Positions 14,576 to 27,519 of a stretch of DNA of 64,000 nt are shown here, one piece after another. The position numbers and the translations under genes are program-made. The notes below the pieces were generated by a model. The model did not search any database and had not been told where the DNA came from. It worked only from the letters and a program-made list of their open reading frames with translations. The DNA comes from Devosia pacifica. Its GTDB lineage: Bacteria > Pseudomonadota > Alphaproteobacteria > Rhizobiales > Devosiaceae. Position 1 is the first letter of the stretch, and the number at the start of each line of letters is the position of its first letter. Location: positions 1,078,680 through 1,142,679 of the forward strand of contig NZ_BMZE01000002.1 of assembly GCF_014652635.1 (NCBI RefSeq), read 5' to 3'.

Positions 14576-14677
14576 GGTGTAATAGCTTTCGCTGTGTCTC
14601 AACTCGATTGACGCTTCGCACACCTGCCATCATCCTCGGCGGGCGGCGGCGCAGCTTGTCAATCATCACGGCTCTAA

Positions 14678-14689
14678 CTAACATGTTAG
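14678..14689. promoter_or_regulatory. GntR operator, copy 1 (gntR/uxaA)
   Basis: This is the perfect palindrome CTAACATGTTAG. It ends one base before the gntR ATG and lies about 100 bp upstream of uxaA on the other strand. FCD-type GntR proteins bind such short palindromes, so autoregulation is likely. Confidence 0.75.
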
Positions 14690-14690
14690 C

Positions 14691-15446
14691 ATGAATTCGG
14701 AAGCCGGTCCTTATGAATTTCTTGTGCGTCCCGCCTCCATGGCGCGAGGCAATGTCACCAATGACGTGACGGCGACACTGCGTCAGGCGATCGTACAACT
14801 GACGCTTGCGCCCGGCGAGGTCATCGACAAGAACGCGATCTGCACCCAGCTCGCTGTATCCCGGTTCCCGGTCAGCGAGGCTCTCGCACGGCTGTCCGCA
14901 GAGGGCCTCGTCGATATCCTGCCGCAGCGCGGGTCGCGCGTATCGCTGGTACGGATTGCCGATGCGCGCGAATACATGCTGATCCGCAAGGCGCTCGAGA
15001 GCGAGGCGCTGCGGGTCCTCATCGGCACCCATCAGCCGGATCTGGTGGCGGCGCTTCAGCGCAACATCGCCGATCAGCGCGAGGCTGCCCGGCACGACGA
15101 TGCGGGTACCTTCCATTATCTCGATGTCGACTTTCACGACATCATGTTTCGAACCATGCATTTCTCGAAGATCCGAACGATCATCGACTCGGCGCGCGCC
15201 AATCTCGACAGGGCGCGGCGGCTGATCATCACGCCCCGGCGCCTCGCGGTGACCATTTCCGAACATCAGGCAATCTTCGATGCCATTCTCGCGGGAGATG
15301 CCGCGGCCGCCTCGAAGGCGGTGCGCGCGCATATCGATGCGGTGATGGTCGAGTTGTTTGCTTTCGCGCGCCAGCAACCACAGCTCTTCGCCGATGGCGA
15401 CACACTGGCTGCAACTGCTGAGCAGGACATATTTCCCTTCGGCTGA
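14691..15446 (+). CDS. GntR-family regulator (FCD subfamily)
   Basis: The 251-residue protein has a GntR winged helix (about 22-88, LTLAPGEVIDKNAICTQLAVSRFPVSEALARL split across its helices) and an all-helical FCD ligand domain (95-220) with the metal-binding pattern DVDFHDIMF and FDAILAGDAAAASKAVRAHID. FadR/FCD members sense sugar acids or other carboxylates. It is flanked by uxaA (divergent) and fucU (downstream). The operator palindrome sits directly at its start codon, with no SD visible, so the mRNA may be leaderless. Three more copies of the palindrome precede other catabolic genes in the window. Confidence 0.9.
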   Translation: MNSEAGPYEFLVRPASMARGNVTNDVTATLRQAIVQLTLAPGEVIDKNAICTQLAVSRFPVSEALARLSAEGLVDILPQRGSRVSLVRIADAREYMLIRKALESEALRVLIGTHQPDLVAALQRNIADQREAARHDDAGTFHYLDVDFHDIMFRTMHFSKIRTIIDSARANLDRARRLIITPRRLAVTISEHQAIFDAILAGDAAAASKAVRAHIDAVMVELFAFARQQPQLFADGDTLAATAEQDIFPFG

Positions 15447-15469
15447 TCGAGGGACACGAGGAGACACTT

Positions 15470-15907
15470 ATGCTCAAAGGCATTCCGCCAATTCTTTCGC
15501 CCGATCTGCTGAAAATCCTGAGGGCCATGGGGCATGGCGACGAGATTGCCATCGTCGATGCGAACTACCCGGCCGAGAGCGCAGGACCCCGGCTTGTGCG
15601 CCTTGACGGACAATCTGCAACCGATGTCCTCGATGCCATTCTCGGCCTGATGCCGCTCGACAGCTATGTCGAGCACGCCGCCTTTTGCATGCAGGTGGTC
15701 GGTGAACCCGATCGCGTCGAGCCAATCATGGAAGAGTTCTCGTCGATCATCTCGCACCATGAGACTGGTTTCGATCTCGGATCGATTGAGCGGTTCGCCT
15801 TCTATGATCGCGTCAGATCGGCCTACGCCATTGTCCAGACTGGCGAAACACGACTTTACGGAAACGTTTTGCTGAAAAAGGGCGTGATTTCGCCTGACGA
15901 CAAATGA
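15470..15907 (+). CDS. fucU: RbsD/FucU-family sugar mutarotase (L-fucose mutarotase type)
   Basis: The 145-residue length and sequence fit FucU: MLKGIPPILSPDLLKILRAMGHGDEIAIVDANYP carries His22 and Asp30 (read in two halves), and the C-terminus has YANV-like YGNVLLKKG. The enzyme speeds conversion between alpha and beta anomers of L-fucose or a related pyranose. A GAGGAG site precedes the ATG, 24 bases after gntR. It is probably cotranscribed with the regulator and shows that the pathway starts from a free sugar. Confidence 0.88.
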   Translation: MLKGIPPILSPDLLKILRAMGHGDEIAIVDANYPAESAGPRLVRLDGQSATDVLDAILGLMPLDSYVEHAAFCMQVVGEPDRVEPIMEEFSSIISHHETGFDLGSIERFAFYDRVRSAYAIVQTGETRLYGNVLLKKGVISPDDK

Positions 15908-15985
15908 TGCCGCATGGCTGAAATGGTGGACGCTTGTGCCGAAGCCTGCCTTTTATCAAAGCGACTGCCGGGTCTATAGCACCAA

Positions 15986-15997
15986 CTAACATGTTAG
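15986..15997. promoter_or_regulatory. GntR operator, copy 2 (FAH gene)
   Basis: Perfect CTAACATGTTAG. Its last G starts the GAGGAG ribosome site of the FAH gene (ATG 16011). Confidence 0.75.
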
Positions 15998-16010
15998 AGG
16001 AGATGGACGA

Positions 16011-16865
16011 ATGAAGCTGCTGCGCGTCGGAGCCAAGGGTGCCGAAAAGCCTGCGATACTGGACAATAATGGCACGATCCGCGATCTGAGCGGCGTAGTC
16101 GATGATATCGCCGGAGAGGTGCTGACGCCCGATGGGCTGTCGCGTATCTCTGGCGCGGATTTGTCGAGCCTGCCGGAACTCGATGCAGGCCAGCGGATCG
16201 GTCCGTGCGTCGGCTCTGTCGGCAAGTTCATCTGCATCGGTCTCAACTATGCAGACCACGCTGCTGAAACCGGAGCGGATATTCCCAAGGAGCCGATCCT
16301 GTTCATGAAGGCCACCAGCGCAATCTGCGGCCCTAATGATGAAGTGATGATCCCGAAAAATTCGATCAAACCGGATTGGGAAGTCGAACTCGGCATCGTC
16401 ATCGGCAAGGAAGCGCGCAATGTCGAGGAAGCCGATGCAATGGAGCATGTGGCCGGCTATTGCGTCGTCAACGATCTGTCCGAGCGGCACTTTCAGATCG
16501 AACGCGGTGGCCAGTGGGTCAAGGGCAAGTCGGCGGACACGTTCGGTCCGATCGGGCCCTGGATGGTGACGCGCGATGAGGTCGCGGATCCACAGAATCT
16601 CAAGATGTGGCTCGAGGTCGATGGCCATCGCTACCAGGACGGCTCGACACAAACGATGATCTTTGGGGTTCAGCACCTCGTTCACTACATCAGTCAGTTC
16701 ATGAGCTTGCAGCCGGGTGACATCATTACCACCGGCACACCTCCAGGGGTCGGCATGGGGATCAAGCCGGAGCCGGTGTGGCTGAAGCCCGGCAACGTGA
16801 TGCGCCTCGGGGTCGAGGGGCTCGGCGAGCAGCAGCAGACCGTCGTGGCATACGCCGCAAAATAG
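16011..16865 (+). CDS. FAH-family hydrolase, probably 2,4-diketo-3-deoxy-L-fuconate/rhamnonate hydrolase
   Basis: The 284-residue protein has the FAH fold: an N-terminal cap domain to about 65, then KFICIGLNYADHAAETG, KATSAICGPND, and the metal-binding WEVELGIVIG and VVNDLSER. GTPPGVGMG closes the active site. This size and these motifs match hydrolases that cleave 2,4-diketo-3-deoxy sugar acids to pyruvate plus L-lactate, though ureidoglycolate lyase is a common alternative annotation. FucU upstream and an L-lactate dehydrogenase under the same operator favour the first. The GntR operator lies 13 bp upstream of its start. Confidence 0.87.
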   Translation: MKLLRVGAKGAEKPAILDNNGTIRDLSGVVDDIAGEVLTPDGLSRISGADLSSLPELDAGQRIGPCVGSVGKFICIGLNYADHAAETGADIPKEPILFMKATSAICGPNDEVMIPKNSIKPDWEVELGIVIGKEARNVEEADAMEHVAGYCVVNDLSERHFQIERGGQWVKGKSADTFGPIGPWMVTRDEVADPQNLKMWLEVDGHRYQDGSTQTMIFGVQHLVHYISQFMSLQPGDIITTGTPPGVGMGIKPEPVWLKPGNVMRLGVEGLGEQQQTVVAYAAK

Positions 16866-16882
16866 GCGTCTAGTCGAAGGTC

Positions 16883-16911
16883 GCGTGGGAACACATAGGC
16901 TGTTCCCACGC
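16883..16911. repeat. Perfect inverted repeat, 11-bp stem
   Basis: GCGTGGGAACA (16883-16893) pairs with TGTTCCCACGC (16901-16911) around a 7-nt loop. There is no T-run on either side, so it may be a factor-dependent terminator or an RNA-stability hairpin for the FAH transcript. Confidence 0.6.
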
Positions 16912-16925
16912 TAACGTCCCGTTAA
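16911..16925. promoter_or_regulatory. CtrA-like site CTAA-N7-TTAA
   Basis: CTAA (16911) and TTAA (16922) at 7-base spacing, one mismatch to the CtrA consensus. It lies 19 bp upstream of the small GNAT gene, directly after the hairpin at 16883. Confidence 0.3.
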
Positions 16926-16943
16926 CGTCTCGCTGAGGGTGTC

Positions 16944-17243
16944 ATGAGCAAACTTGATGTCACTGTCGAACACACACGCGAAGAAGCTGGCGGACGCTAT
17001 TGGGCGACGCTCGACCCTGATCATGAAGCGGAGATGACCTATCGCTGGGTCTCGGAAGGCGTGATGTCGATCGACCACACGCTGACCCCGCCGAAATACG
17101 AGGGCCGGGGGGTTGCCTTGCAGCTTGTTGAAGCCTCGATAAAGGATGCGCGGGAGCAGGGGTTCACGATCATTCCCCGCTGTCCCTATGTCGCCGTACA
17201 ATTTCGCCGTCATCCCGAATGGGGCGACCTGCTGGCACGCTAG
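16944..17243 (+). CDS. Small GNAT-like N-acetyltransferase (YjdJ/COG2388 type)
   Basis: The 99-residue protein is the short acetyltransferase form: a beta-sheet (YWATLDPDHEAEMTYRWVSEGVMSIDHT), then PPKYEGRGVALQLVEASIKDAREQGFTIIPRCPYVAVQFRRHPEW read as the acetyl-CoA loop and final helix-strand. EGRGVALQL corresponds to the Q/RxxGxG/A loop of GNAT enzymes. Substrates of these small members are unknown. A CTAA-N7-TTAA site, near the CtrA consensus, is 19 bp upstream. Confidence 0.82.
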   Translation: MSKLDVTVEHTREEAGGRYWATLDPDHEAEMTYRWVSEGVMSIDHTLTPPKYEGRGVALQLVEASIKDAREQGFTIIPRCPYVAVQFRRHPEWGDLLAR

Positions 17244-17246
17244 AGC

Positions 17247-18242
17247 TTACCAGCGTATATCGTCGGCGCCCTCTGCGAGCATCGGTTCGAGCATGGTCCA
17301 GGCAATCTCTGCTTTCGGCGCTCCATAAGCGTAGGCGGAGACTTCGTAGGGATTAAACTGGACGCTGAGAGCATAATCGCCAAAATTCCAGCGGGCCGGA
17401 TCGACAGCGATCTCGGCGATGTCCTGCTCGAAATCATCCCAAAGAGCGTCACCATGCTGGTCGCGCAAGGCCTGTGCAGTCAATTTGACCAGCCGTTGCT
17501 CCCATCCCTCGCCAGCGAACAGATCCGATGCCCGCATCTCGCGCTTCTCGTCGATCAGGTAGTGGATATAGGTGCCGAGGTAGTTTCCGTGTGCGGCGCC
17601 ATGCCCATACCAGAACAAATTGTCCGACAGGGTGATGCGGTTGGCGGTGACCGTCTCAACGGTAATGCTGACATCGACATCCTCTGAGGATGAAGCGCTT
17701 TCGTCGCTACCTGCCCAGCTTTGCGCACGGTGTGCCATCATCACGTCGTTGAACGAGCCAGACAATTCGCTTCCATCTATGAGCGGCATCGAGAAGACGT
17801 GGCTGGCGATACGCCAGTACGAAATCGGCTCGGCGTCAGGGTCGATCTCGGCGGAATAGTCGGACTGCAGGTAGAAGCGATGGCCCCCGATCATGCGACT
17901 GGTCTCAAGGACCTCGATGCGGTCGCGATAGGCGCCGAGCAAGCAGTCGGGCGTCGTCACCGGGCTTTGTGGCGAAGGCAAAGCGATGCAGCTGCGTTCG
18001 GCGTAGGACAGCCAGTCGCGCTGATCAGCCTGCATGCTCGCGCGCGCTTCATCGCTCAAGCCGCCGAGCGCGGTGGCGTAGGCCTTGGCCAGCGTTTCAT
18101 CGGCTCTCGAGAGGTCTGGCGTTTCACACACTGCCTGTTCGAACTGCGTTTGTGCAGCCGAACAGTCAAAGCTCGCCGATTGGGCAGGCAACGCTGGAAT
18201 GAAAAAGGCCGCGAGACAGAAAGGCAGGATGAGGGCACGCAT
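17247..18242 (-). CDS. Secreted LprI/DUF1311 plus RsiV-like (DUF3298) protein
   Basis: The 331-residue protein starts MRALILPFCLAAFFIPALPAQSA, a clear Sec signal peptide. The N-terminal mature part, SFDCSAAQTQFEQAVCETPDLSRADETL, is a lysozyme-inhibitor LprI-like domain with paired cysteines; the C-terminal part has YGHGAAHGNYLGTYIHYLIDE and the end typical of DUF3298. Both domains occur in periplasmic proteins of Gram-negatives. A GGGAGA site supports ATG 18242. Its role is probably periplasmic defence or sensing, but this is not established. It converges on the GNAT gene with a 3-base gap. Confidence 0.82.
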   Translation of the reverse strand: MRALILPFCLAAFFIPALPAQSASFDCSAAQTQFEQAVCETPDLSRADETLAKAYATALGGLSDEARASMQADQRDWLSYAERSCIALPSPQSPVTTPDCLLGAYRDRIEVLETSRMIGGHRFYLQSDYSAEIDPDAEPISYWRIASHVFSMPLIDGSELSGSFNDVMMAHRAQSWAGSDESASSSEDVDVSITVETVTANRITLSDNLFWYGHGAAHGNYLGTYIHYLIDEKREMRASDLFAGEGWEQRLVKLTAQALRDQHGDALWDDFEQDIAEIAVDPARWNFGDYALSVQFNPYEVSAYAYGAPKAEIAWTMLEPMLAEGADDIRW

Positions 18243-18337
18243 CGAAAGGTCTCCCGTTTGCCGGCAGAATAGCATGGTTCGAAGCGGGCGCCAGAGCATG
18301 GAAGGCAGGGTGGGCTGATCAGCCCACCCTGCAATCA

Positions 18338-19357
18338 TCAGGGTTCGAGGTGGCCCTGGCCGGGATCTTGACGCGCGCTGATATCGGGCTCGTTGCGGGT
18401 CTTCCACAGGGAGTAGAGAACCCCTGCCGCCAGAATGCCAATCGTCACGCCCAGAGACAGCAGCGTGTCGATATGGATACCGACCGGCACAAGGAAAATC
18501 TTGATGCCAATGAGTACGAGAATGATCGCCAGCGAAACCTGCAGATAGCGGAACCGGTTCATCGCCGCCGCCAGCGCGAAGTAGAGCGCACGCAATCCGA
18601 GAATAGCGAAGATGTTCGAGGTGTAGACAATGAAGGTGTCCTGCGTCACTGCGAACACGGCAGGAACGGAGTCGACGGCGAATATGACGTCGACGATCTC
18701 AACCATGATCAGCGCCACCGCCAGAGGCGTCAGGAACAGCGCCATCTTTCCGGTCTTGGGGTCTTCCTGGCGCACCGTGAAGGCGCGGCCATGCAGCTGA
18801 TTGGTGATCGGCAGGTGGCGGCGCAGGAAGTTGAGGATCGGATTGTTTTCCATATCCCCCTCATCTTCTTCGTGCACGAACATGCGGATGCCCGTGAAGA
18901 CGAGGAAAGCGCCGAATATGAACAGGATCCAATCGAAAGAATGGACCAGCGCTGCCCCAACCCCAATCAGCACCGCGCGGAACAGGATGACGCCGAGAAT
19001 GCCCCAGAACAGCACTCGGTGCTGGTAGAGCCGCGGAATGCCGAGAAAGCCGAAAATCGTCGCGATGACAAACATGTTGTCCATCGCAAGGCTCTGTTCG
19101 ATCAAATAGCCGGTGTAAAATTCCAGCCCGGCCTGCGAGCCTCTCGAGACCCACACCCAAACGCCGAAAGCCAGCGCGACCAGCACATAGAACCCGTAAA
19201 GGGTCAGGCTCTCCTTGGCTGAGATTTCGTGTTCATCCCGGTGCAGAATCCCGAGGTCGAACACCAGAATGATCAGGACGATAGCGATAAAGGCGACCCA
19301 GAAATAAACTGGTGTGCCGAGCAGATCGCCCATAAGGGCGCCAAAAAGCGGTTCCAT
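18338..19357 (-). CDS. TerC-family integral membrane protein
   Basis: The 339-residue protein has eight to nine hydrophobic helices and the TerC signatures FDLGILHRDEHEIS, EQSLAMDNMFVIATIF and VEIVDVIFAVDSVPAVFA, with membrane acidic residues expected to bind metal. TerC proteins such as Alx export Mn2+ and help metalate exported proteins. MEPLFGALMG at 19357 is chosen as the start. I looked for a yybP-ykoY manganese riboswitch upstream and did not find the core motif. It is not part of the surrounding catabolic set. Confidence 0.92.
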   Translation of the reverse strand: MEPLFGALMGDLLGTPVYFWVAFIAIVLIILVFDLGILHRDEHEISAKESLTLYGFYVLVALAFGVWVWVSRGSQAGLEFYTGYLIEQSLAMDNMFVIATIFGFLGIPRLYQHRVLFWGILGVILFRAVLIGVGAALVHSFDWILFIFGAFLVFTGIRMFVHEEDEGDMENNPILNFLRRHLPITNQLHGRAFTVRQEDPKTGKMALFLTPLAVALIMVEIVDVIFAVDSVPAVFAVTQDTFIVYTSNIFAILGLRALYFALAAAMNRFRYLQVSLAIILVLIGIKIFLVPVGIHIDTLLSLGVTIGILAAGVLYSLWKTRNEPDISARQDPGQGHLEP

Positions 19358-19505
19358 ACCGGACCATCTCCACAAAAGAATTGGGAGCAGCTCCGACATC
19401 ACGAGGCGATCTCTCGATCACGCTCGCCAGAGGGGCCCGGCGCCGCACACCTTCCTTACGCGCGTCCGGGCGAATTTCAAAGGGGGGCGTTGAAACTTGT
19501 GAAGC

Positions 19506-20126
19506 TCAGGCCTTCTGGATTGAGAATGGCTGCAGGGCCTGCTGCACCCGCAAAAGTTCTTCCTGCCGGATTTCGTGTCCGCCCTCGTGCCAGAAGAGAT
19601 CGACCTGCGCTTGCTGTTCGCGAAAATACCCTGCCAGCCCCTCTGTCGCCTCTGCAGGTGCGATGGGATCGCGGCGGCCGGCTGTAATGAGGACAGACTT
19701 TCCGGCGAGGTCTGGCTGTGATGGCGGTGCGAAGGGGATCAGCGGATGCATCAGCATCGTTGCGTCAAAAAGCTTCGGATGACTGAACTGCACCGACGCT
19801 AGAATATTGGCGCCGTTTGAGTAACCGAGGCCGATTACGGACGATGGAGCACGCTCGGCAAGCTGCGCCTTAACGAAGTCGGCCATTGTTTCCGTGCGAG
19901 CCTTGAGGTCCTCCATGTCGTAGACTCCTTCGCCGGTCCGACGGAAGTAGCGCAACGCGCCACCTTCGGACACGTCACCGCGCGGTGCGATGATTGCTGC
20001 GCCTGGCAGAAGCTGCCCGGCAAGCTCGAAGAACTGATCCTCATCTCCGCCCGTACCGTGAAAGACGAAGAACATCGGCGCAGTGTGATCTGCGCCTTCC
20101 GACCTGCGAAACTGATAGCTGGACAT
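19506..20126 (-). CDS. Carboxylesterase/phospholipase (YpfH-like alpha/beta hydrolase)
   Basis: This is a 206-residue compact alpha/beta hydrolase. HGTGGDE forms the oxyanion loop, GYSNGA carries the nucleophilic Ser, RRDPI the Asp and EGGHEI the His. It hydrolyses small ester substrates; family members are annotated as carboxylesterases or phospholipases. GAAGGA precedes MSSYQFRR, so ATG 20126 is used rather than far-upstream starts that overlap the divergent gene. It is cytoplasmic. Confidence 0.88.
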   Translation of the reverse strand: MSSYQFRRSEGADHTAPMFFVFHGTGGDEDQFFELAGQLLPGAAIIAPRGDVSEGGALRYFRRTGEGVYDMEDLKARTETMADFVKAQLAERAPSSVIGLGYSNGANILASVQFSHPKLFDATMLMHPLIPFAPPSQPDLAGKSVLITAGRRDPIAPAEATEGLAGYFREQQAQVDLFWHEGGHEIRQEELLRVQQALQPFSIQKA

Positions 20127-20246
20127 ATCTCTGATCCTTCTCTTGCAGCACAGGCCAATGTCGTGGCGCGAGACAGATGACGAAAGGCCAAGTTGTGTGA
20201 CTGTGTGTTGCCAGCGATCGAACGACGCGTATCGAAGGAGCGTGCG

Positions 20247-20963
20247 ATGACTATGACACTGTCGTCTTTCCCCCAAGGCGGTGCAGCCATCATTATCGGT
20301 AGCAGCGGGGGCATTGGCTCGGCGCTTCTCGAAGCGTTGCATGCATCGGCGCGTTTCGACGCTGTTATTGGCCTTTCCCGCACTTCGGAACCATCGATCG
20401 ACCTAGCTGAGGAATCGACTATCGCCGCTGCAGCCGAGCATGTTGCAGGGCTGCAAGTGCCGGTGCGGCTCGTCGTCGTTGCGAGCGGGATTTTGCAAGG
20501 GCAGGGGATTGCGCCGGAGAAGACCTGGCGCCACCTCGATGCTGCAGCAATGCAGCGCAGCTTTCTGGTCAATGCGATCGGGCCGGCGCTGGTCGCCAAG
20601 CATTTCCTGCCGTTGCTGCCGCGCGAGGGCAAGGCCGTGTTCGCGGCCATTTCCGCAAAGGTCGGCAGCATCGGCGATAACCGGCTCGGTGGCTGGTACA
20701 GCTACCGGGCATCGAAGGCGGCGCTTAACCAGTTGCTGCGCACCGCCGCGATCGAATTGAGCCGCACCCGCCCAGACGCAATCTGCGCAACGCTTCATCC
20801 CGGTACGGTTGCGACGCCGCTGTCGCAGCCGTTCCGGGGTTCTGCACCATCAGTTGTCGACCCCGATGAGGCGGCGGTTCGGCTGCTTCATGTCATCGAC
20901 AGACTGACGCCGGAGCAAACTGGACGGCTCGTTGATCATTCGGGAGAAATCCTGCCCTATTGA
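20247..20963 (+). CDS. Short-chain dehydrogenase/reductase (C-factor-like)
   Basis: The 238-residue SDR has the cofactor loop IIIGSSGGIGSALLE near residue 15, the VASG segment, and the catalytic YSYRASKAAL (Tyr-x3-Lys) preceded by Ser in AISAKVGSIGDN. An AAGGAG site lies seven bases before ATG 20247. The sequence is closest to C-factor/CsgA-type SDRs rather than to sugar dehydrogenases, so a role in the local sugar-acid pathway is uncertain. It converges with the SMP-30 gene, leaving a 2-base gap. Confidence 0.88.
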   Translation: MTMTLSSFPQGGAAIIIGSSGGIGSALLEALHASARFDAVIGLSRTSEPSIDLAEESTIAAAAEHVAGLQVPVRLVVVASGILQGQGIAPEKTWRHLDAAAMQRSFLVNAIGPALVAKHFLPLLPREGKAVFAAISAKVGSIGDNRLGGWYSYRASKAALNQLLRTAAIELSRTRPDAICATLHPGTVATPLSQPFRGSAPSVVDPDEAAVRLLHVIDRLTPEQTGRLVDHSGEILPY

Positions 20964-20965
20964 GT

Positions 20966-21880
20966 TCAGGGCCGCTGGGCGCCGGTCGCGCCGACGAACA
21001 CCGAATAGACGGCCTGCGTCGAGGTAATGAACAACCTGTTCCGGCGTTCACCGCCAAACGTCAGGTTGGAGACCGATTGCGGAAGGTTGATGCGGCCCAG
21101 GAGCGTGCCGGCCGGATCATAGCAATTGATTCCGGCCCCGGCGCTCGTCCACAGATTGCCGTTCGTATCGAAACGAAAGCCGTCCGGAATACCAGTCTCG
21201 AGTTCGCAGAAAACCCGGCCATTGCTTAATGTCTTGCCGTCGGTATCGTAGCAGCGGATCACCGAGGCGCAGTCCGGATCATGGCTCTTGCCGCTGTCTG
21301 CGATGAAGAGTTGCGTTTCATCGATGGAGAAGGCCAGCCCGTTCGGCTTGGTGAAATCCTTGGTCACCACATCGAGCGTGTCGGTCTGCGGATCGTAGCG
21401 ATAAACGAAGCACCCGTCCTGTTCCGGATCGGCCTTATAGCCTTCGTAGTCAGAGATGATTCCGTATGTCGGGTCGGTAAACCAGATCGTGCCGTCCGAA
21501 CGCACCACGACATCGTTCGGTGAGTTCAGGCGCTTGCCCTGATGATGGCTTACGAGCGTCGTGATCGTACCGTCGGGCTCGGTGCGCAGCACGGCACGCG
21601 CTCCGTGAGAACACGAAACCATCCGCCCCTCAAGGTCACGGGTATTGCCGTTGACGTAGTTCGAGGGCTGTCGATACACCGTGACGCCGCTCTCTGGCAC
21701 CCAGCGCAGCATTCGGTTGTTTGGAATATCGGACCAGATCAAATAGCCGCCATCATTGAACCAGACCGGTCCCTCTGACCATCGGCAGCCATCATATATG
21801 GTTTCGATCGCGGCAATCGGCACCGTCAGATCGTAAAACGCCTTCTCGTGAAATTCATACGTGTCGCCGGCGATCGCCAT
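20966..21880 (-). CDS. SMP-30/gluconolactonase family lactonase
   Basis: The 304-residue six-bladed propeller contains the metal site: RWSEGPVWFNDGGYLIWSDIPNNRMLRW (Glu of SEGP), RLNSPNDVVVRSDGTIWFTDPTYG (Asn) and KPNGLAFSIDETQLFIADSG (Asp), read as separate blades. It should open a sugar lactone such as fuconolactone to the free acid. MAIAGDTYEF at 21880 is chosen because GGAGGG lies eight bases upstream. It is divergent from lldD with a CTAACATGTCAG operator between them, so both are probably in the GntR regulon. Confidence 0.9.
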   Translation of the reverse strand: MAIAGDTYEFHEKAFYDLTVPIAAIETIYDGCRWSEGPVWFNDGGYLIWSDIPNNRMLRWVPESGVTVYRQPSNYVNGNTRDLEGRMVSCSHGARAVLRTEPDGTITTLVSHHQGKRLNSPNDVVVRSDGTIWFTDPTYGIISDYEGYKADPEQDGCFVYRYDPQTDTLDVVTKDFTKPNGLAFSIDETQLFIADSGKSHDPDCASVIRCYDTDGKTLSNGRVFCELETGIPDGFRFDTNGNLWTSAGAGINCYDPAGTLLGRINLPQSVSNLTFGGERRNRLFITSTQAVYSVFVGATGAQRP

Positions 21881-21968
21881 GCTTGTGCCCTCCGCTTTTG
21901 GCGCACATTGGCCAAGCCTGAGCAGGCTGGCAAGCACGATAAGAGGCTCTGGCGGCGCGGATTGACGG

Positions 21969-21980
21969 CTAACATGTCAG
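21969..21980. promoter_or_regulatory. GntR operator, copy 3 (SMP-30/lldD)
   Basis: CTAACATGTCAG differs by one base from the perfect palindrome. It lies between the divergent starts at 21880 and 22018. Confidence 0.7.
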
Positions 21981-22017
21981 TGTCTAGAGCAATTGCCAGC
22001 TTCAGGGAGGACGCGGC

Positions 22018-23232
22018 ATGCCACGGCTCGACAAGGTTTTGACGGTCGACGAGATGATGGCGCTCGCCAAGCGCCGGGTGCCCAAACAGTTCTTTCAATA
22101 TGCCGACTCAGGATCGTGGACGGAGGGCACCTATCGCGCCAACAGCGCAGATTTCTCGAAGATTCTGCTGCGCCAGCGGGTCGCCGTAAACATCGACAAC
22201 CGCGTTCATGAGACGCAGATGCTAGGAACAAGCGTCGCGATGCCTGTTGCGCTGGCGCCGACCGGGCTGACGGGCATGCAGTCGGCCGACGGTGAAATCA
22301 AGGCGGCGCGGGCTGCGGAAGCCTTTGGTGTGCCATTTACGCTATCCACCATGTCCATCTGTTCAATCGAGGATGTGGCCGAACACACAAGCGAGCCGTT
22401 CTGGTTCCAGCTCTACGTAATGCGCGATCGCGCCTTTATCGAGCGTCTTATCGATCGGGCACGGGCGGCAAAGTGTTCGGCGCTGGTGCTGACAGTCGAT
22501 CTGCAGATTTCAGGACAACGCCACAAGGATTTGCGCAACGGGATGACGGCGCCTCCGAAAATGACGCCGAGATTTGTTGCGGAAATGGCGCTCAAGCCGC
22601 GCTGGGCGCTCGAAATGCTGCAAACGCGCCGGCATACATTCCGAAACGTTGTCGGACATGTCGACAGCGTCGGCGACCTGTCGGGGCTCGCGGCGTGGAC
22701 GAACCGGCAGTTTGATCCGACGCTGCATTGGGGGGACATCAAGTGGATCAAGCAGCGCTTTGGCGGCCCGGTGATCGTCAAGGGCATTCTTGATGCCGAG
22801 GACGCGCGACAGGCGGTGGGGCATGGCGCGGACGCGATTATCGTCTCCAACCATGGCGGACGCCAACTCGACGGTGCGGCAAGCACGATCAGGGCGCTGC
22901 CTGAGATTGTCGATGCGGTCGGCAAGACCACGGAAGTTTATCTCGATGGCGGTGTCCGCTCGGGACAGGATATCATCAAGGCACTGGCCCTCGGAGCGCG
23001 CTCAACCTTTATCGGGCGGGCATTCTTGTGGGGGCTGGGCGCAGGGGGTGAGGCGGGGGTGACCCGCGTGCTCGAGATCATCCGCCGTGAGCTCGATATC
23101 ACCATGGCGCTTTGCGGAGAGCGGGACGTTCGCGAGATCGGCCGGCACAATCTTTATTCGATTGATCTGCCGCCACGCACACTCCCCGGCCAGAGCGGGA
23201 CCGCTCAGAAGACGGTCCCGCCCACCGGGTGA
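22018..23232 (+). CDS. lldD: FMN-dependent L-lactate dehydrogenase
   Basis: The 404-residue TIM-barrel FMN enzyme has the signature ADAIIVSNHGGRQLDGA with catalytic His near residue 280, YLDGGVRSGQDIIKALALGA for FMN phosphate, and the start LTVDEMMALAKRRVPKQFFQYADSG, split across helices. It oxidises L-lactate to pyruvate, feeding electrons to the respiratory chain. GGGAGG precedes the ATG. Under the same operator as the FAH hydrolase, it would use the L-lactate that enzyme releases. The last 20 residues are a non-conserved tail whose codons form a 9-bp hairpin. Confidence 0.93.
   Translation: MPRLDKVLTVDEMMALAKRRVPKQFFQYADSGSWTEGTYRANSADFSKILLRQRVAVNIDNRVHETQMLGTSVAMPVALAPTGLTGMQSADGEIKAARAAEAFGVPFTLSTMSICSIEDVAEHTSEPFWFQLYVMRDRAFIERLIDRARAAKCSALVLTVDLQISGQRHKDLRNGMTAPPKMTPRFVAEMALKPRWALEMLQTRRHTFRNVVGHVDSVGDLSGLAAWTNRQFDPTLHWGDIKWIKQRFGGPVIVKGILDAEDARQAVGHGADAIIVSNHGGRQLDGAASTIRALPEIVDAVGKTTEVYLDGGVRSGQDIIKALALGARSTFIGRAFLWGLGAGGEAGVTRVLEIIRRELDITMALCGERDVREIGRHNLYSIDLPPRTLPGQSGTAQKTVPPTG
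23195..23221. repeat. Inverted repeat at the lldD 3' end
   Basis: GCGGGACCG (23195-23203) pairs with CGGTCCCGC (23213-23221). It lies inside the last codons of lldD and lacks a T-run, so it may protect or end converging transcripts. Confidence 0.5.
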
Positions 23233-23234
23233 TG

Positions 23235-23651
23235 TTACTGGCTCATTGCGGGCTGAAGGTCGGCAAGTGCCGCGTTGATCCGCTCGATCAGTGCATCGTC
23301 TGCCTGGGCAACCTGAAGAATCTCGTTGTATTCGTCGACGGCAATCCCGGGCGTTCCTTCGACTGCAGTTTCGATTTCCTCGTTGGCGGCCTGCATGATG
23401 GCCTGCTGATCTTCGGCTGATTGCGCGCCTTGCAGCTCTTCCTGCATGCCCTGGCCGATCTGGACCACCTCGATATAAGCGGCTGCGAAGGCCGAAATCG
23501 TCTCGTCGCTGAAATCGGCGGACTGTGCAGTGGTGGTGGCAGGAGCCTGCTCAACCATGCCTTGCGCAAGGGCCGGGGCGGCGACGCTGCCCAACATCGC
23601 AACGCTGAGCGCAGTAACGATCGCAGATTTTACAGTCTTGTTGGCCTGCAT
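23235..23651 (-). CDS. DUF4168 periplasmic protein
   Basis: The 138-residue protein has a signal peptide (KSAIVTALSVAMLGSVAAPALA) and a DUF4168-type helical body: ETISAFAAAYIEVVQIGQG, then EEIETAVEGTPGIAVDEYNEILQVAQADDALIERIN (read as two helices). Members are exported small helical proteins of unknown function. It is 2 bases from the convergent lldD stop. Confidence 0.85.
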   Translation of the reverse strand: MQANKTVKSAIVTALSVAMLGSVAAPALAQGMVEQAPATTTAQSADFSDETISAFAAAYIEVVQIGQGMQEELQGAQSAEDQQAIMQAANEEIETAVEGTPGIAVDEYNEILQVAQADDALIERINAALADLQPAMSQ

Positions 23652-23870
23652 GATTATGAACCTTCTTCAGCTTTAAATAAGTTGTACCGCTTCTCGTCCC
23701 TTGCGTAAGCAAAGGGCGAGATCGTGTCTGACGCCAAAGAGCTAGCTGTCGAATTTGCTCACAACGTGTGCCGGAGAAGGCCATATTTTGACGCTCTTGG
23801 AGCATGCGATCACGGTTGAAACGCCGCAGGAGAGGTGAGGGCAAGCAAAAGTTAGGGTTAAGCCGCGCAG

Positions 23871-23885
23871 TTAATCCAGACTTAA
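23871..23885. promoter_or_regulatory. CtrA box TTAA-N7-TTAA upstream of an OMP gene
   Basis: TTAA (23871) and TTAA (23882) are separated by TCCAGAC, exactly seven bases, the full CtrA consensus. It lies 62 bp before ATG 23947. Another TTAA is just upstream, near 23858. Confidence 0.65.
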
Positions 23886-23946
23886 GACTATTGGCGGATA
23901 TTGGGCTAAGTTCGATGGCCAATTCTGCCAAACCCGAGGTATTCAC

Positions 23947-24717
23947 ATGCGCAAGTCTGTTGCGGCAATCATGGTGGCCGGCGCCGCCGTTTTCGCAGGC
24001 CCGGCATTCGCCGCCGACCTGCCATCGTATCCGCCTATCATCGAAGTTCCCGAACTGCCGCCCGTCGACAAGGATCTTGGCGGCGCTTTCTACCTGCGCG
24101 GCAGCGCTGCGTGGAACATCCACTGGACCAAGGACGTCGATGCCTATGACTGCGTCTGCGACGAAGTAAGCTTCCCGGTCGAGGATTGGGGATATGGCTA
24201 CAGCTTCGGTGGTGGTTTCGGTTACGAGACCGGTACCGGCCTGCGCTTCGACGCCACTGTCGATTATCTGCAGAACGAGGGCAGCTCGATCACCAAGACC
24301 GGCTTCGGTGCTGGGGTTGATGGCGATTACAGCCTGAAGCTGCGCAGCACTATCGCGCTGGCCAACGTGTACTATGATTTCTCGCTGGGCGACGGCTTTG
24401 GCGGCTACGGCCACCACAAGGGCTACTCCGCCGGCGGCGGCGCGTTCGCCTATGTCGGTGCGGGCGCTGGTGTGGCGTTCAACAAGGTTTCGGTCGATGG
24501 CCCTGCCGGCAACCCGATCCCTGGCGGCGACAATGTCAGCCTGGCTGCGGCGGGCATGGTCGGTGTCGGCTACGATTTCGGCGCCTTCACCACGGATGTC
24601 GGCTATCGCGGCCTTTATATCTCCGAGGTCACCAACGATCAGCCGGCTCCGGCGGGCTTTTCCTCGGACAACAATTTCGTGCACGAAGTGCGCGGCACGG
24701 TGCGTTACAAGTTCTAG
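23947..24717 (+). CDS. Outer-membrane beta-barrel protein (Omp25/RopB type)
   Basis: The 256-residue protein has signal peptide MRKSVAAIMVAGAAVFAGPAFAA and alternating beta-strands such as YSFGGGFGYETGTGLRFDATVDY, ending in VRGTVRYKF with the C-terminal Phe needed for BamA assembly. It resembles the small eight-stranded barrels abundant in Hyphomicrobiales outer membranes. The CtrA box upstream suggests cell-cycle-timed expression. A terminator follows. Confidence 0.88.
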   Translation: MRKSVAAIMVAGAAVFAGPAFAADLPSYPPIIEVPELPPVDKDLGGAFYLRGSAAWNIHWTKDVDAYDCVCDEVSFPVEDWGYGYSFGGGFGYETGTGLRFDATVDYLQNEGSSITKTGFGAGVDGDYSLKLRSTIALANVYYDFSLGDGFGGYGHHKGYSAGGGAFAYVGAGAGVAFNKVSVDGPAGNPIPGGDNVSLAAAGMVGVGYDFGAFTTDVGYRGLYISEVTNDQPAPAGFSSDNNFVHEVRGTVRYKF

Positions 24718-24744
24718 CACCCGCACACATCGCAGTTTTTGGAG

Positions 24745-24772
24745 CGGCGCCAATCGGCGCCGTTTCTCTTTT
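24745..24772 (+). terminator. Rho-independent terminator of the OMP gene
   Basis: CGGCGCC (24745-24751) pairs with GGCGCCG (24756-24762) around AATC, followed by TTTCTCTTTT. Confidence 0.85.
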
Positions 24773-24819
24773 GTGGCGCGTGCCGCTAGAGTGCAGGCGA
24801 TTCATGAAGGGGAAGAGGC

Positions 24820-25794
24820 ATGAAGGCACTGATCATTGGCGCTGCGGGCATGGTGGGACGCAAGCTGACCGAGCGTCTCGCAAACCAGCCTGTGCTCGCC
24901 GGGCAAGCGCTCGATGCGCTGATGCTCGTCGATGTGATCGAGCCGCAGGCGCCGCAAGGTGCCGATTTCGCGGTCGAGACCCGCGCGCTAGACCTGTCGG
25001 AACCCGAGGCGGCGACAGCGCTGCTCGAGGAGCGGCCGGACATCATCTTTCACCTGGCGGCAATTGTGTCGGGCGAGTCGGAAGCGGATTTCGAGAAAGG
25101 CTACCGCATCAATCTCGATGGTACCCGCTATCTGTTCGAGGCGATCCGGCAGGCGCATGGTGCGGACGGCTACTGCCCGCGCGTTGTCTTCACCTCCTCG
25201 ATTGCGGTGTTTGGCACACCGTTCCCCGAAGCCATAGGCGATGAGTTTCTCAACGCGCCGCTTACCAGTTACGGCACGCAAAAGGCGATCGGCGAGCTGT
25301 TGCTGGCCGATTATTCGCGCCGTGGTTTTTTCGATGGTATTGGCATCAGGCTGCCGACCATTGCGATCAGGCCCGGTGCGCCAAACAAGGCGGCATCCGG
25401 CTTCTTTTCAAGCATCATCCGCGAGCCGCTGGCCGGGCAGGAGGCAATCCTGCCAGTCGAGGAGAGCGTGCGGCACTGGTTTGCCAGCCCGCGCGCTGCA
25501 GTTGGCTTTTTGCTGCACGCGGCCGAGGTCGATACCACAAGCCTCGGCGCACGCCGCAGCCTCAGCATGCCGGGCGTTTCCGTGACCATTGCCGAAGAAA
25601 TCGAGGCGCTGCGCCGCGCAGCCGGTGATAAAGCCGTTGCCCTGATCCGGCGCGAGCCTGATCCAACCATCATGAAGATCGTCGCTGGCTGGCCGCAGAA
25701 CTTCGACCCACAGCGTGCGATTGGCCTCGGGTTTACGGCCGACCGGGATTTTGACGAGATCGTGCGCATCCATATCGAGGATGAGCTGTCCTGA
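24820..25794 (+). CDS. denD: NAD-dependent epimerase/dehydratase, D-erythronate dehydrogenase-like
   Basis: This 324-residue extended SDR starts MKALIIGAAGMVGRKL, has the catalytic YGTQKAIGE (Tyr-x3-Lys), the preceding SSIAVFG, and the RPGAPNKAASGFFSSIIREPLAGQ region typical of DenD. DenD oxidises D-erythronate at C2 to 2-oxo-tetronate. The usual partners OtnK/OtnC are absent here, so a different aldonate is possible. GGAAGAGG precedes the start. Confidence 0.83.
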   Translation: MKALIIGAAGMVGRKLTERLANQPVLAGQALDALMLVDVIEPQAPQGADFAVETRALDLSEPEAATALLEERPDIIFHLAAIVSGESEADFEKGYRINLDGTRYLFEAIRQAHGADGYCPRVVFTSSIAVFGTPFPEAIGDEFLNAPLTSYGTQKAIGELLLADYSRRGFFDGIGIRLPTIAIRPGAPNKAASGFFSSIIREPLAGQEAILPVEESVRHWFASPRAAVGFLLHAAEVDTTSLGARRSLSMPGVSVTIAEEIEALRRAAGDKAVALIRREPDPTIMKIVAGWPQNFDPQRAIGLGFTADRDFDEIVRIHIEDELS

Positions 25795-25798
25795 TCCG

Positions 25799-26413
25799 TC
25801 AGCCGATGGACGGACGCAGCATTTCGAAGGTCTCGGTCACCTCCGCGTAGTCGCCGCGATAGCCACAGCGGGCGATGGTGCCGGCTTTTGCGATGTCGAA
25901 GCGCCCGTCTATCAGCGCCGTTTCGGCGATATGGACGTAAACCACCTGGCCGAGCACCAGATGGGCCTCGAGGCCGTTGCCATCGAGATCGCTCAGGCGG
26001 TGAATGGCGGTAACCTTGCATTCGAGCGCGGCGAGCGCATTGGCAACGCGCGGCGCCGGAATGGCGCTGCAAGGCGTCTTTTCGAGTCCGGCCGCCTCGA
26101 ACTCATCAACTTCGGCCGGATAGGCGCCGGATGTCTGGTTGACGGCCTCGGCCATGGCGCGCGTTGCGAGATTGAAGCAGAACACGCCAGTCGCCTCGAT
26201 ATTGGCGAGGCTGTGCTTTCGCCCCTCGCTCGAAAAGCCGATGATCGGCGGGCTGCTGACGAAGGCGTTGAAAAAGCTGTAGGGCGCCAGATTGGCCACG
26301 CCCTCGCTGTCCGTTGACGAGATCCAGCCGATCGGGCGCGGGGCGACGATGGCCTTGAACGGATCATGCGGCAGGCCGTGCCCCTCTGCCGGGTCGTAGC
26401 TGTGAAATTGCAT
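25799..26413 (-). CDS. Flavin reductase-like FMN-binding protein
   Basis: The 204-residue split-barrel protein contains VAPRPIGWISSTDSEGVANLAPYSFFNAF, the FMN-binding loop of the flavin-reductase-like family, and GFSSEGRKHSLANIEATGVFCFNL. It probably reduces free flavin or acts on an aromatic or sugar-derived substrate with a partner. Its ATG shares a base with the stop of the GH43-like gene (TGATG), so it is translationally coupled and under the same GntR operator. Confidence 0.87.
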   Translation of the reverse strand: MQFHSYDPAEGHGLPHDPFKAIVAPRPIGWISSTDSEGVANLAPYSFFNAFVSSPPIIGFSSEGRKHSLANIEATGVFCFNLATRAMAEAVNQTSGAYPAEVDEFEAAGLEKTPCSAIPAPRVANALAALECKVTAIHRLSDLDGNGLEAHLVLGQVVYVHIAETALIDGRFDIAKAGTIARCGYRGDYAEVTETFEMLRPSIG

Positions 26414-27366
26414 CAGATCTGTTCGTATCCAGTCTCGAGGGCCGGGGCGTCGATATCGCGTTCGGCAACGAGATTGTCGTCGACCACAGTCAATCGCGCG
26501 ACATGAATGCTTGTGGCCCGCGCCTCGGGCGTTTCCGGCGCCTTGTCTTCGGCCTCGTTCCAGCGCGGATGCGTGAAATAGTAGAGCGCCGCCCAGTCCC
26601 CCTGGGTCACTACATCGGCGTGACGCGCAAATCGCAGATCGTCTTCATGGGCGCCGGGCGCGCCGAGAATGACGCCCTGGCGCGTCCAGTTCTGTGCATC
26701 GCTGGACCGGTAGACCGCCTGGCCGTGCCATTCGTCGGTGATCATCCAGATCCAGCCGCCGAGCTTGAAAACGTTCGGTCCTTCATGCGGCGGCGCATCG
26801 GGGCTTCCCGCAATCACCATGCCTTCAGCCTGCCAATCATAGAGATTTTCGCTAGTGGCCGAATAGGTGCCGGAGCCGCGTGTCTCATCCTTGTACCACA
26901 GCCTGTAAAGGCCATCCGGACACAGAGCCACGGCAGCATCGATGGCGTTCGTTGTCGGTAGCGGAAGGGCACTGCGCCGTGTCCAGCTCGTCAGGTCAGG
27001 GCTGGTGAAATGGACGATATCGCGCGCGACCCCGGTGAAGCCGGTGGGCGTGCCCGGCATATAGGTCAGATACATATGGTATTCGCCGCGCCCCCAGATG
27101 ACTTCCGGCGCCCAATGCGTGTTGAGGCCCTTATCCGCCGGCGCATCGAGCCCCTCGACCGTTCCGCGATAGTCAAAGCTCTGCCCGCCATCCACGGAGA
27201 CCGCCAGCCCGATCGGGCTGCCATGGATCCATGACTGGTCTGCGTCGGCCAGATGCGCCCGGCGATTGGTGTAGAACATCCACCATTCATCGGTGCCATT
27301 GCGGTTGATGACTGTCGGATCCGCGGCGCCGTCAAATTCCGGGTCGCGATAAATCGGTGCGGACAT
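26413..27366 (-). CDS. GH43-like five-bladed propeller glycosidase
   Basis: The 317-residue protein begins with [29 protein letters not shown], which carries the first-blade Asp (ADPT) of family 43/32-type glycosidases. HWAPEVIWGRGEYHMYLTY and GPNVFKLGGWIWMITDEWHG follow with possible catalytic acids. There is no signal peptide, so it acts on imported oligosaccharides or is a glycan phosphorylase relative. AAGGA precedes MSAPIYRD, and an operator lies 30 bp upstream of the start. Substrate unknown. A degraded copy of its 5' end lies at 29300-29385. Confidence 0.8.
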   Translation of the reverse strand: MSAPIYRDPEFDGAADPTVINRNGTDEWWMFYTNRRAHLADADQSWIHGSPIGLAVSVDGGQSFDYRGTVEGLDAPADKGLNTHWAPEVIWGRGEYHMYLTYMPGTPTGFTGVARDIVHFTSPDLTSWTRRSALPLPTTNAIDAAVALCPDGLYRLWYKDETRGSGTYSATSENLYDWQAEGMVIAGSPDAPPHEGPNVFKLGGWIWMITDEWHGQAVYRSSDAQNWTRQGVILGAPGAHEDDLRFARHADVVTQGDWAALYYFTHPRWNEAEDKAPETPEARATSIHVARLTVVDDNLVAERDIDAPALETGYEQI

Positions 27367-27395
27367 GTCCGTTCCTTGTCGAGCGTTTTGGTCGA

Positions 27396-27407
27396 CTGAC
27401 ATGTTAG
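27396..27407. promoter_or_regulatory. GntR operator, copy 4 (GH43/flavin reductase)
   Basis: CTGACATGTTAG, the mirror-image one-base variant of the palindrome, is 30 bp upstream of the GH43 start. Confidence 0.7.
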
Positions 27408-27519
27408 CGCGGGAGCGTGAGCAAACAAGAGCGCCGTTGGAGCGCAAGCCGGTTGAGCAGCTTTCAGTCTGCTATTCAAACTGCGCAGACGAGCCGATAT
27501 CGCACACCGAGTGCTTTGC

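Follow-up and report, generated by a model that had tools for sequence, protein, structure and literature searches.

We analysed a 64,000-nucleotide stretch of the Devosia pacifica genome (the window; C2:1078680-1142679, 60% GC), in which one short palindrome recurs beside genes for a GntR-family regulator and for enzymes of sugar-acid metabolism. The whole genome has 4,015,906 bases (4.02 Mb) in nine contigs. The palindrome has 12 letters, with the general pattern CTRACATGTYAG and the perfect form CTAACATGTTAG. A first-pass annotation had placed it at four positions, and all four were recovered as exact matches to CTRACATGTYAG: 14678 and 15986 (both CTAACATGTTAG), 21969 (CTAACATGTCAG) and 27396 (CTGACATGTTAG). 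The first copy (14678..14689) lies in the gap between gntR (14691..15446, plus strand) and a divergent gene for a sugar-acid dehydratase of the uxaA/garD family (listed frame 13025..14623, minus strand; PF20629, 1.2e-102), and it ends 1 nt before the gntR ATG. The product of gntR, a proposed repressor, is an FCD-domain regulator of 251 amino acids (Pfam GntR, PF00392, 1.6e-14; FCD, PF07729, 8e-23). Directly 3' of gntR is fucU, encoding an RbsD/FucU mutarotase (15470..15907, plus strand; PF05025, 9.6e-43). The second copy (15986..15997) precedes the gene for an FAH-family hydrolase (16011..16865, plus strand) that would cleave 2,4-diketo-3-deoxy sugar acids into pyruvate and lactate or glycolate. 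The third copy (21969..21980) separates two divergent genes, one for an SMP-30/gluconolactonase-type lactonase (20966..21937, minus strand; PF08450, 6.9e-50) and one for an lldD-like FMN-dependent L-lactate dehydrogenase (22018..23232, plus strand; PF01070, 1.3e-136; NF008398, 440.8 bits with a cut-off of 376). The fourth copy, an operator-like sequence at 27396..27407, lies upstream of a GH43-like gene (listed frame 26413..27447, minus strand; PF04616, 1.3e-8), the stop of which is adjoined by a flavin-reductase-like gene (25799..26413, minus strand; PF01613, 5e-22).

Over the whole genome, exact matches to CTRACATGTYAG were found at seven places, and the reversed pattern of CTRACATGTYAG, used as the control for motif counts, gave none at zero mismatches. 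The count expected from base composition was 0.52 in 4.02 Mb at 60% GC, and the Poisson probability was 1e-6 for at least seven sites genome-wide and 2e-10 for at least four in 64 kb. The three further sites were at C1:646219, upstream of an aldo-keto reductase gene (L015); at C1:936048, upstream of a gene for an FAH-fold dehydratase-like protein, presumably a member of COG3970, which is followed by an aldehyde dehydrogenase gene (L016); and at C2:495249, upstream of an FAD-oxidase/4Fe-4S 2-hydroxyacid dehydrogenase gene (L017). The regulon of five units proposed at first was therefore correctly described as scattered and set too small. That proposal was to be given up if the motif were equally common within genes; all seven exact sites instead marked the 5' end of a gene, three of them (aldo-keto reductase, FAH-like gene and GH43) by a later start, chosen from its position and a potential ribosome-binding site, as the longest frame there begins within the site or 5' of it. 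The statement that the sites lie in short gaps upstream of genes also held overall, with the addition that the gntR site serves the divergent uxaA gene as well. At GH43, it fails for the listed frame, whose TTG start at 27447 covers the site, and holds if the ATG at 27366 (residue 28, the Met of MSAPIYR) is the start, which is likely.

Loosened matching was rejected, as background dominated it. With two mismatches allowed, the window gave 7 matches, an unremarkable number given a mean of 3.8 in shuffled sequences and 7 of 100 shuffles that equalled it. With one mismatch, the genome gave 14 places and the control 9. By our reading, the seven extra places comprised five within genes, one at the start of an open reading frame and one in a gap. 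Since such matches are near background, only the exact motif is informative, with the exception of the FAH-like gene, at which several loci have a single change in common (see below). The seven one-mismatch places (C1:406005, 527491, 884794 and 1414300, C2:806549, C3:58738 and C4:234269) were dropped as targets. The one at C1:406005 (L018:3006), CTAACATGTCAT, lies in a gap beside a short minus-strand gene.

The site at the regulator gene was conserved. Among the best 80 of 113 loci, the closest relatives of the regulator protein came from Devosia; they comprise 42 loci at 65-74% identity, of which 39 bear the label Devosia, and all 42 had the site upstream of gntR. In all 60 loci compared, with 50 distinct sequences, perfect CTAACATGTTAG lay 0-1 nt ahead of the gntR start, these loci being gntR orthologs of at least 50% identity with enough upstream DNA and including family genomes and overlapping loci; the site was thus also beside uxaA, which shares the gap, in all 60. 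Its position leaves no room for an ordinary Shine-Dalgarno sequence beside the start. Upstream of it, a fixed TTG was found in 47 of the 50 distinct sequences, and TTGNNA in 35. The -35-like hexamer lies exactly 17 bp before a TAACAT within the site; in D. pacifica, the predicted -35 box is TTGTCA (14656..14661, plus strand) and TAACAT is at 14679-14684. This predicted -35/-10 pair would make the A of the ATG the first base of the mRNA, so that gntR would be a leaderless gene with its operator as the -10 box. At lldD, where 28 of 32 orthologs had the site, the upstream consensus of 26 distinct sequences was ATTGACGA-[site]-TTGCTAGGGCA, with TTGAC directly 5' of the site in 25. Here the site fills the predicted -35/-10 spacer, which in the window runs between TTGACG (21962-21967) and TAGAGC (21985-21990). 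Judged from the DNA, such operator positions on core promoters would suit a repressor.

The distribution of the motif followed that of the regulator. In the genus Devosia, 60 of 61 genomes (D. pacifica included) had the motif, at 427 places versus 7 for the control, and the one genome without it is 62% complete. A regulator match at E<1e-99 was found in 58 of the 61, the other three being 55, 62 and 78% complete. Outside the genus, 52 genomes of the family were compared: the 34 with a GntR match at E<1e-40, among them 12 g276 genomes with 0-3 sites each, averaged 4.1 sites, with one genome lacking any, and the 18 without such a match averaged 0.44, with 13 lacking any. The one-sided Mann-Whitney test on site number gave p=4e-7, which overstates independence because the genomes are related. 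G053, a reduced genome of 2.0 Mb, had the ortholog as its single GntR match and four sites. Across the class as a whole, any site was found in 57 of 387 genomes, with a maximum of three outside D. pacifica, and the control reached four in one genome; this scarcity indicates that the enrichment is lineage specific. The highest count seen was 13 exact sites in the 3.3 Mb of G484 (family genus g270), three of which were read (L254).

The motif also recurred before the same genes in other genomes. In eight relatives for which all sites were fetched, 43 of 50 sites were, by our tally, beside orthologs of gntR/uxaA, FAH, lldD, aldo-keto reductase, FAD/Fe-S dehydrogenase, FGGY kinase or a short-chain dehydrogenase/reductase (SDR)/amidohydrolase pair. 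The lldD, FAH, SMP-30 and uxaA loci were fetched by the regulator or in mixed ways. Loci fetched by the motif itself had a site at the aldo-keto reductase in 7 of 7, at the FAD/Fe-S dehydrogenase in 9 of 9 and at the FGGY kinase in 6 of 6, ratios that are biased upward by the way the loci were fetched. For FAH, 32 of 58 orthologs had the site; for SMP-30, 7 of 30 had one at most 250 bp away. The FAH-like dehydratase gene was matched in 60 of the 61 genus genomes. At 11 of its 30 loci (L309-L328), beyond those with the exact site, one shared one-base form, CTRACATTTYAG, was found, in which the centre of the palindrome is broken. All 15 sites at this gene, exact or with one mismatch, lay 7-26 nt before the inferred start, with no other match within one mismatch there. 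CTRACATTTYAG is perhaps a weaker operator kept by selection, and its recurrence means that the strict motif underestimates the regulon.

In Rhodobacterales, the pathway genes were found together. The regulator there is 35-37% identical, and the gntR/uxaA gap holds CTAACATGTTAC in KLH11 and CTAACATGTCAG in Octadecabacter (the order was checked for Octadecabacter and Fluviibacterium). In Rhodobacteraceae KLH11 (L124), the genes for UxaA, GntR, an aldo-keto reductase, FucU, an amidohydrolase (just 29% identical), an FAH-like protein, an aldehyde dehydrogenase (just 26% identical), an SDR and FAH form one run behind CTAACATGTTAC. Octadecabacter (L125) has the first five of these, in the same order, behind CTAACATGTCAG, and Fluviibacterium (L126) has CTGGCATGTCAG upstream of uxaA and of the first of two tandem FCD-GntR genes, which lie between uxaA and the aldo-keto reductase gene (L126:9285-10645). 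Exact CTRACATGTYAG occurred 0, 1 and 1 times in the whole genomes of KLH11, Octadecabacter and Fluviibacterium, respectively, so the regulon is not dispersed there by this measure. L252, from a Devosiaceae genome, resembles L124 in having most pathway genes in one cluster. These two clusters provide an independent tie among the genes that are scattered in Devosia.

In D. pacifica, fucU (with gntR), the aldo-keto reductase, SMP-30, UxaA-type and FAH genes all stand behind one operator sequence, and this set of a mutarotase, a sugar dehydrogenase, a lactonase, a dehydratase and a hydrolase points to non-phosphorylative oxidation. We propose, with good confidence, that the FCD-GntR protein (14691-15446) has CTAACATGTTAG/CTRACATGTYAG as its operator and represses its own gene and a dispersed set for the oxidation of L-fucose and D-arabinose by that route. 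The idea that one regulator controls scattered units is supported by the motif at the gntR start, by site numbers that track the regulator and by its recurrence before the same genes elsewhere. As to the four window units assigned to it, three are conserved and GH43/flavin reductase is weak. FucU and the aldo-keto reductase would convert L-fucose, or its C5 analogue D-arabinose, to the lactone, SMP-30 would open the lactone, and the UxaA-type dehydratase would yield the 2-keto-3-deoxy acid. From there, an SDR and the FAH hydrolase could yield pyruvate together with L-lactate when fucose is the substrate, or with glycolate when it is arabinose. The same acid could be taken to 2-oxoglutarate by the FAH-fold dehydratase with the aldehyde dehydrogenase; LldD and the FAD/Fe-S dehydrogenase would oxidise the resulting hydroxy acids, lactate and glycolate. 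A dimer bound over the gntR -10 box and start, or in the lldD -35/-10 spacer, would exclude RNA polymerase, and an acid of the pathway may release it by binding in the FCD domain. The ligands D145, H149, H192 and H214 (D-x3-H, H, H, which we take to be the FCD metal-site pattern) were invariant in 56 of 56 aligned rows, the rows being regulators with a site, exact or with one mismatch, at their locus. If the proposal holds, a likely pathway and its switch can be named for Devosia.

Several observations weigh against this proposal, besides the relatedness of the genomes and the fetching bias noted above. Seven of the 50 sites in relatives had no assigned target (L165, L178, L179, L183, L191, L197 and L200). 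No site of their own was seen at 26 of 58 FAH loci and 23 of 30 SMP-30 loci, and the exact site was present at 4 of 30 FAH-like loci, that of D. pacifica included, which is a small share. None of 29 other fetched GH43 orthologs had an exact site, one of them (L272) having about 59 bases upstream. The SDR and amidohydrolase genes of D. pacifica, which would form the fucose branch, and its FGGY kinase gene lie elsewhere in the genome without a site. G476 (750 contigs, 7% contamination) had three sites and no ortholog match. The NCBIfam cut-offs were missed by FAH (NF053535, 1.1e-128, 428 bits with a cut-off of 500) and by FucU (L-fucose mutarotase, 132.6 bits with a cut-off of 141). In the accessible part of one study, P. 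mimosarum has one cluster for D-arabinose and one for L-fucose, each responding to its own sugar (PMC6336799), so a single joint regulon is not a given. In g276, finally, none of the 10 fetched loci of a GntR relative of 41-49% identity had a site, exact or with one mismatch, within the surrounding 14-15 kb.

The g276 proteins were accordingly rejected as site-bearing orthologs, although their genomes stayed in the regulator-bearing group of the site-number comparison, where they lower the mean and so count against our reading. They appear to be sister regulators with a different operator. A quick tree required two changes between rows with and without the site, which is consistent with the loss of an old site in g276; of the 38 inner branches of this tree, 14 are weak, and two long ones meet. 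At these loci (L257-L264, L268 and L269), an aldehyde dehydrogenase gene was nearby in 7 of 10, its product being 34-37% identical to that of L016. The FGGY kinase and SDR/amidohydrolase genes of D. pacifica were rejected as members, with no match within two mismatches in the surrounding 8.5 and 10 kb. The kinase gene lies beside an NDH-2-like gene at L206:2926-5905 (C3, ~32 kb), without a site; its orthologs in six relatives carry one. The SDR gene (L207:3097-3837) is also without a site; the relatives L171 and L176 have one at an SDR/amidohydrolase pair. Around it, L207:1940-8541 (C1, ~1.22 Mb) brings together, again without a site, genes for the SDR, an amidohydrolase_2, a second LldD-like protein, an epimerase and an ABC ATPase; this neighbourhood may be a further branch of the fucose type, controlled by another regulator.

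The same operator and regulator could serve another substrate, such as L-rhamnose, L-galactose/L-galactonate or a hexuronate/aldarate, the fucose enzymes being mere relatives. Three nearest solved structures fit this idea: L-2,4-diketo-3-deoxyrhamnonate hydrolase for FAH (8gsr, 4.9e-96), galactarate dehydratase for the UxaA-type enzyme (6u7l, 1.7e-103) and L-galactose dehydrogenase for the aldo-keto reductase. However, FucU scored 132.6 bits for L-fucose mutarotase versus 41.5 for D-ribose pyranase, and its nearest solved structure is FucU/L-fucose mutarotase. The FAH-like protein of L016 had two structure hits, the best an FAH-family protein without a named activity and the second 2-keto-3-deoxy-D-arabinonate dehydratase. 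From the available parts of two papers, a UxaA/GarD-family enzyme, of the same superfamily as the D. pacifica dehydratase, uses D-arabinonate (100% activity) and L-fuconate (5.6%), a Paraburkholderia aldo-keto reductase of COG0667 oxidises both D-arabinose and L-fucose (PMC6336799), and the fuc cluster of Campylobacter jejuni, with similar proteins, makes lactate from L-fucose and glycolate from D-arabinose (PMC11365321). We thus regard another substrate as unlikely. Still less probable is that a different regulator, an FCD-GntR paralog or an unrelated factor, owns the palindrome and also controls gntR. The genome does have 15 GntR-family matches, binding by the FCD-GntR protein is a prediction, g276 keeps a GntR relative without a site and G476 has sites without the ortholog; yet the site abuts the gntR start in every one of the 60 loci, its number tracks the ortholog across the family, G053 keeps its sites with the ortholog as sole GntR match, and the same or a one-mismatch site precedes the distant relative in two Rhodobacterales.

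The palindrome might also be a promoter element, a methylation target or a DNA-structure signal rather than a protein operator. The predicted -10 box within it at gntR would agree with this, but its offset to the predicted -35 and -10 boxes differs between gntR and lldD at a constant sequence and it is tied to one pathway, which makes the idea barely credible. A more serious possibility, though somewhat less likely than not, is that the window mixes true operators with coincidence, the GH43/flavin-reductase site being a chance match. This would explain why it was found in this species only, roughly 0.5 matches per genome would arise by chance, and what GH43 might do in the pathway is not clear. 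Against it, the match is exact, lies at a 5' end and is near three conserved sites, and regulons often recruit genes in single species. At L284, a match with one mismatch beside GH43 was discounted because by position it falls on the start codon of the gene. GH43/flavin reductase would thus be the weakest member of the regulon, and a doubtful one.

The polarity of the palindrome is unusual for the family. The claim that FCD-type regulators are established to bind such palindromes was wrong in detail: the published consensus of the FadR subfamily is TKGT/ACMA, with GT before AC and with published exceptions, and here AC comes before GT (PMC4494728, as far as the accessible part goes). CTAACATGTTAG therefore lacks this operator trait, which is common in the subfamily and is not a condition of membership. 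According to the same source, Arg35 of FadR makes a specific DNA contact and Arg49 a backbone contact. In all 56 aligned rows, the equivalent of Arg35 was N, T, S, G, A, P or L, that of Arg49 was S, T or A, and that of Glu34 was Lys, by our own mapping to FadR numbering anchored on Ser57-Arg58. The g276 rows, without a site, were changed at the Arg35 and Arg49 positions too, so the motif is not determined by these two residues alone. We suggest tentatively, as a proposal whose chances are close to balanced and slightly on the doubtful side, that this FCD-GntR subclade left the GT...AC code with the loss of the Arg35/Arg49 contacts, and reads an AC-AT-GT sequence built into the core promoter (the leaderless gntR -10 box and the lldD spacer), with up to 13 places per genome in Devosiaceae versus a clustered locus in Rhodobacterales forming a series of dispersal or gathering that lends itself to ordering on a tree. 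The system would then combine changed contact residues with an FCD operator whose polarity is reversed, and would offer a natural series for how regulons scatter, from a clustered Rhodobacterales locus with a site, through 1-13 copies in regulator-bearing Devosiaceae outside g276, to a g276 gene without one.

Among the literature matches listed for the motif strings, for Devosia with fucose and for Devosia with GntR, no Devosia regulon or operator of this kind was found; the papers listed for the motif strings were off topic by title, and TAACATGTTA occurred together with GntR in none. The proposed system can be compared with four known ones, in each case as described in the available parts of the papers. 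The Route II/III pentose and fucose pathways of Herbaspirillum and Paraburkholderia share a UxaA/GarD-type dehydratase, a COG3970 protein, an SDR and a COG0667 aldo-keto reductase with it; unlike here, their genes are clustered, and such a regulator or operator was not seen in that part of the source (PMC6336799). The C. jejuni fuc cluster (Cj0480c-Cj0489) likewise has an altronate-dehydratase-type protein, a short-chain dehydrogenase, an amidohydrolase and an epimerase/mutarotase, uses L-fucose and D-arabinose and is under repressor control, whereas it forms one cluster and has an IclR-family regulator, for which those parts show no operator sequence (PMC11365321, PMC12566272). Members of the FadR (FCD) subfamily, such as LldR, DgoR, GlcC and UxuR, resemble the Devosia regulator in combining a GntR helix-turn-helix with an FCD domain, in controlling sugar-acid or hydroxy-acid genes, and in their palindromic operators and Asp/His metal residues; they differ in the TKGT/ACMA consensus, in place of AC-AT-GT, and in Arg35, Arg49 and Glu34, which are replaced here (PMC4494728). 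The FucR regulons predicted in microbial-mat genomes, with sites in Rhodobacteraceae bin08 and Halomonas, are described there without mention of Devosia and are similar in that they lie at oxidative L-fucose loci, and Rhodobacterales are also the home of the clustered relative described here (Leyn et al. 2017, PMC5507952).

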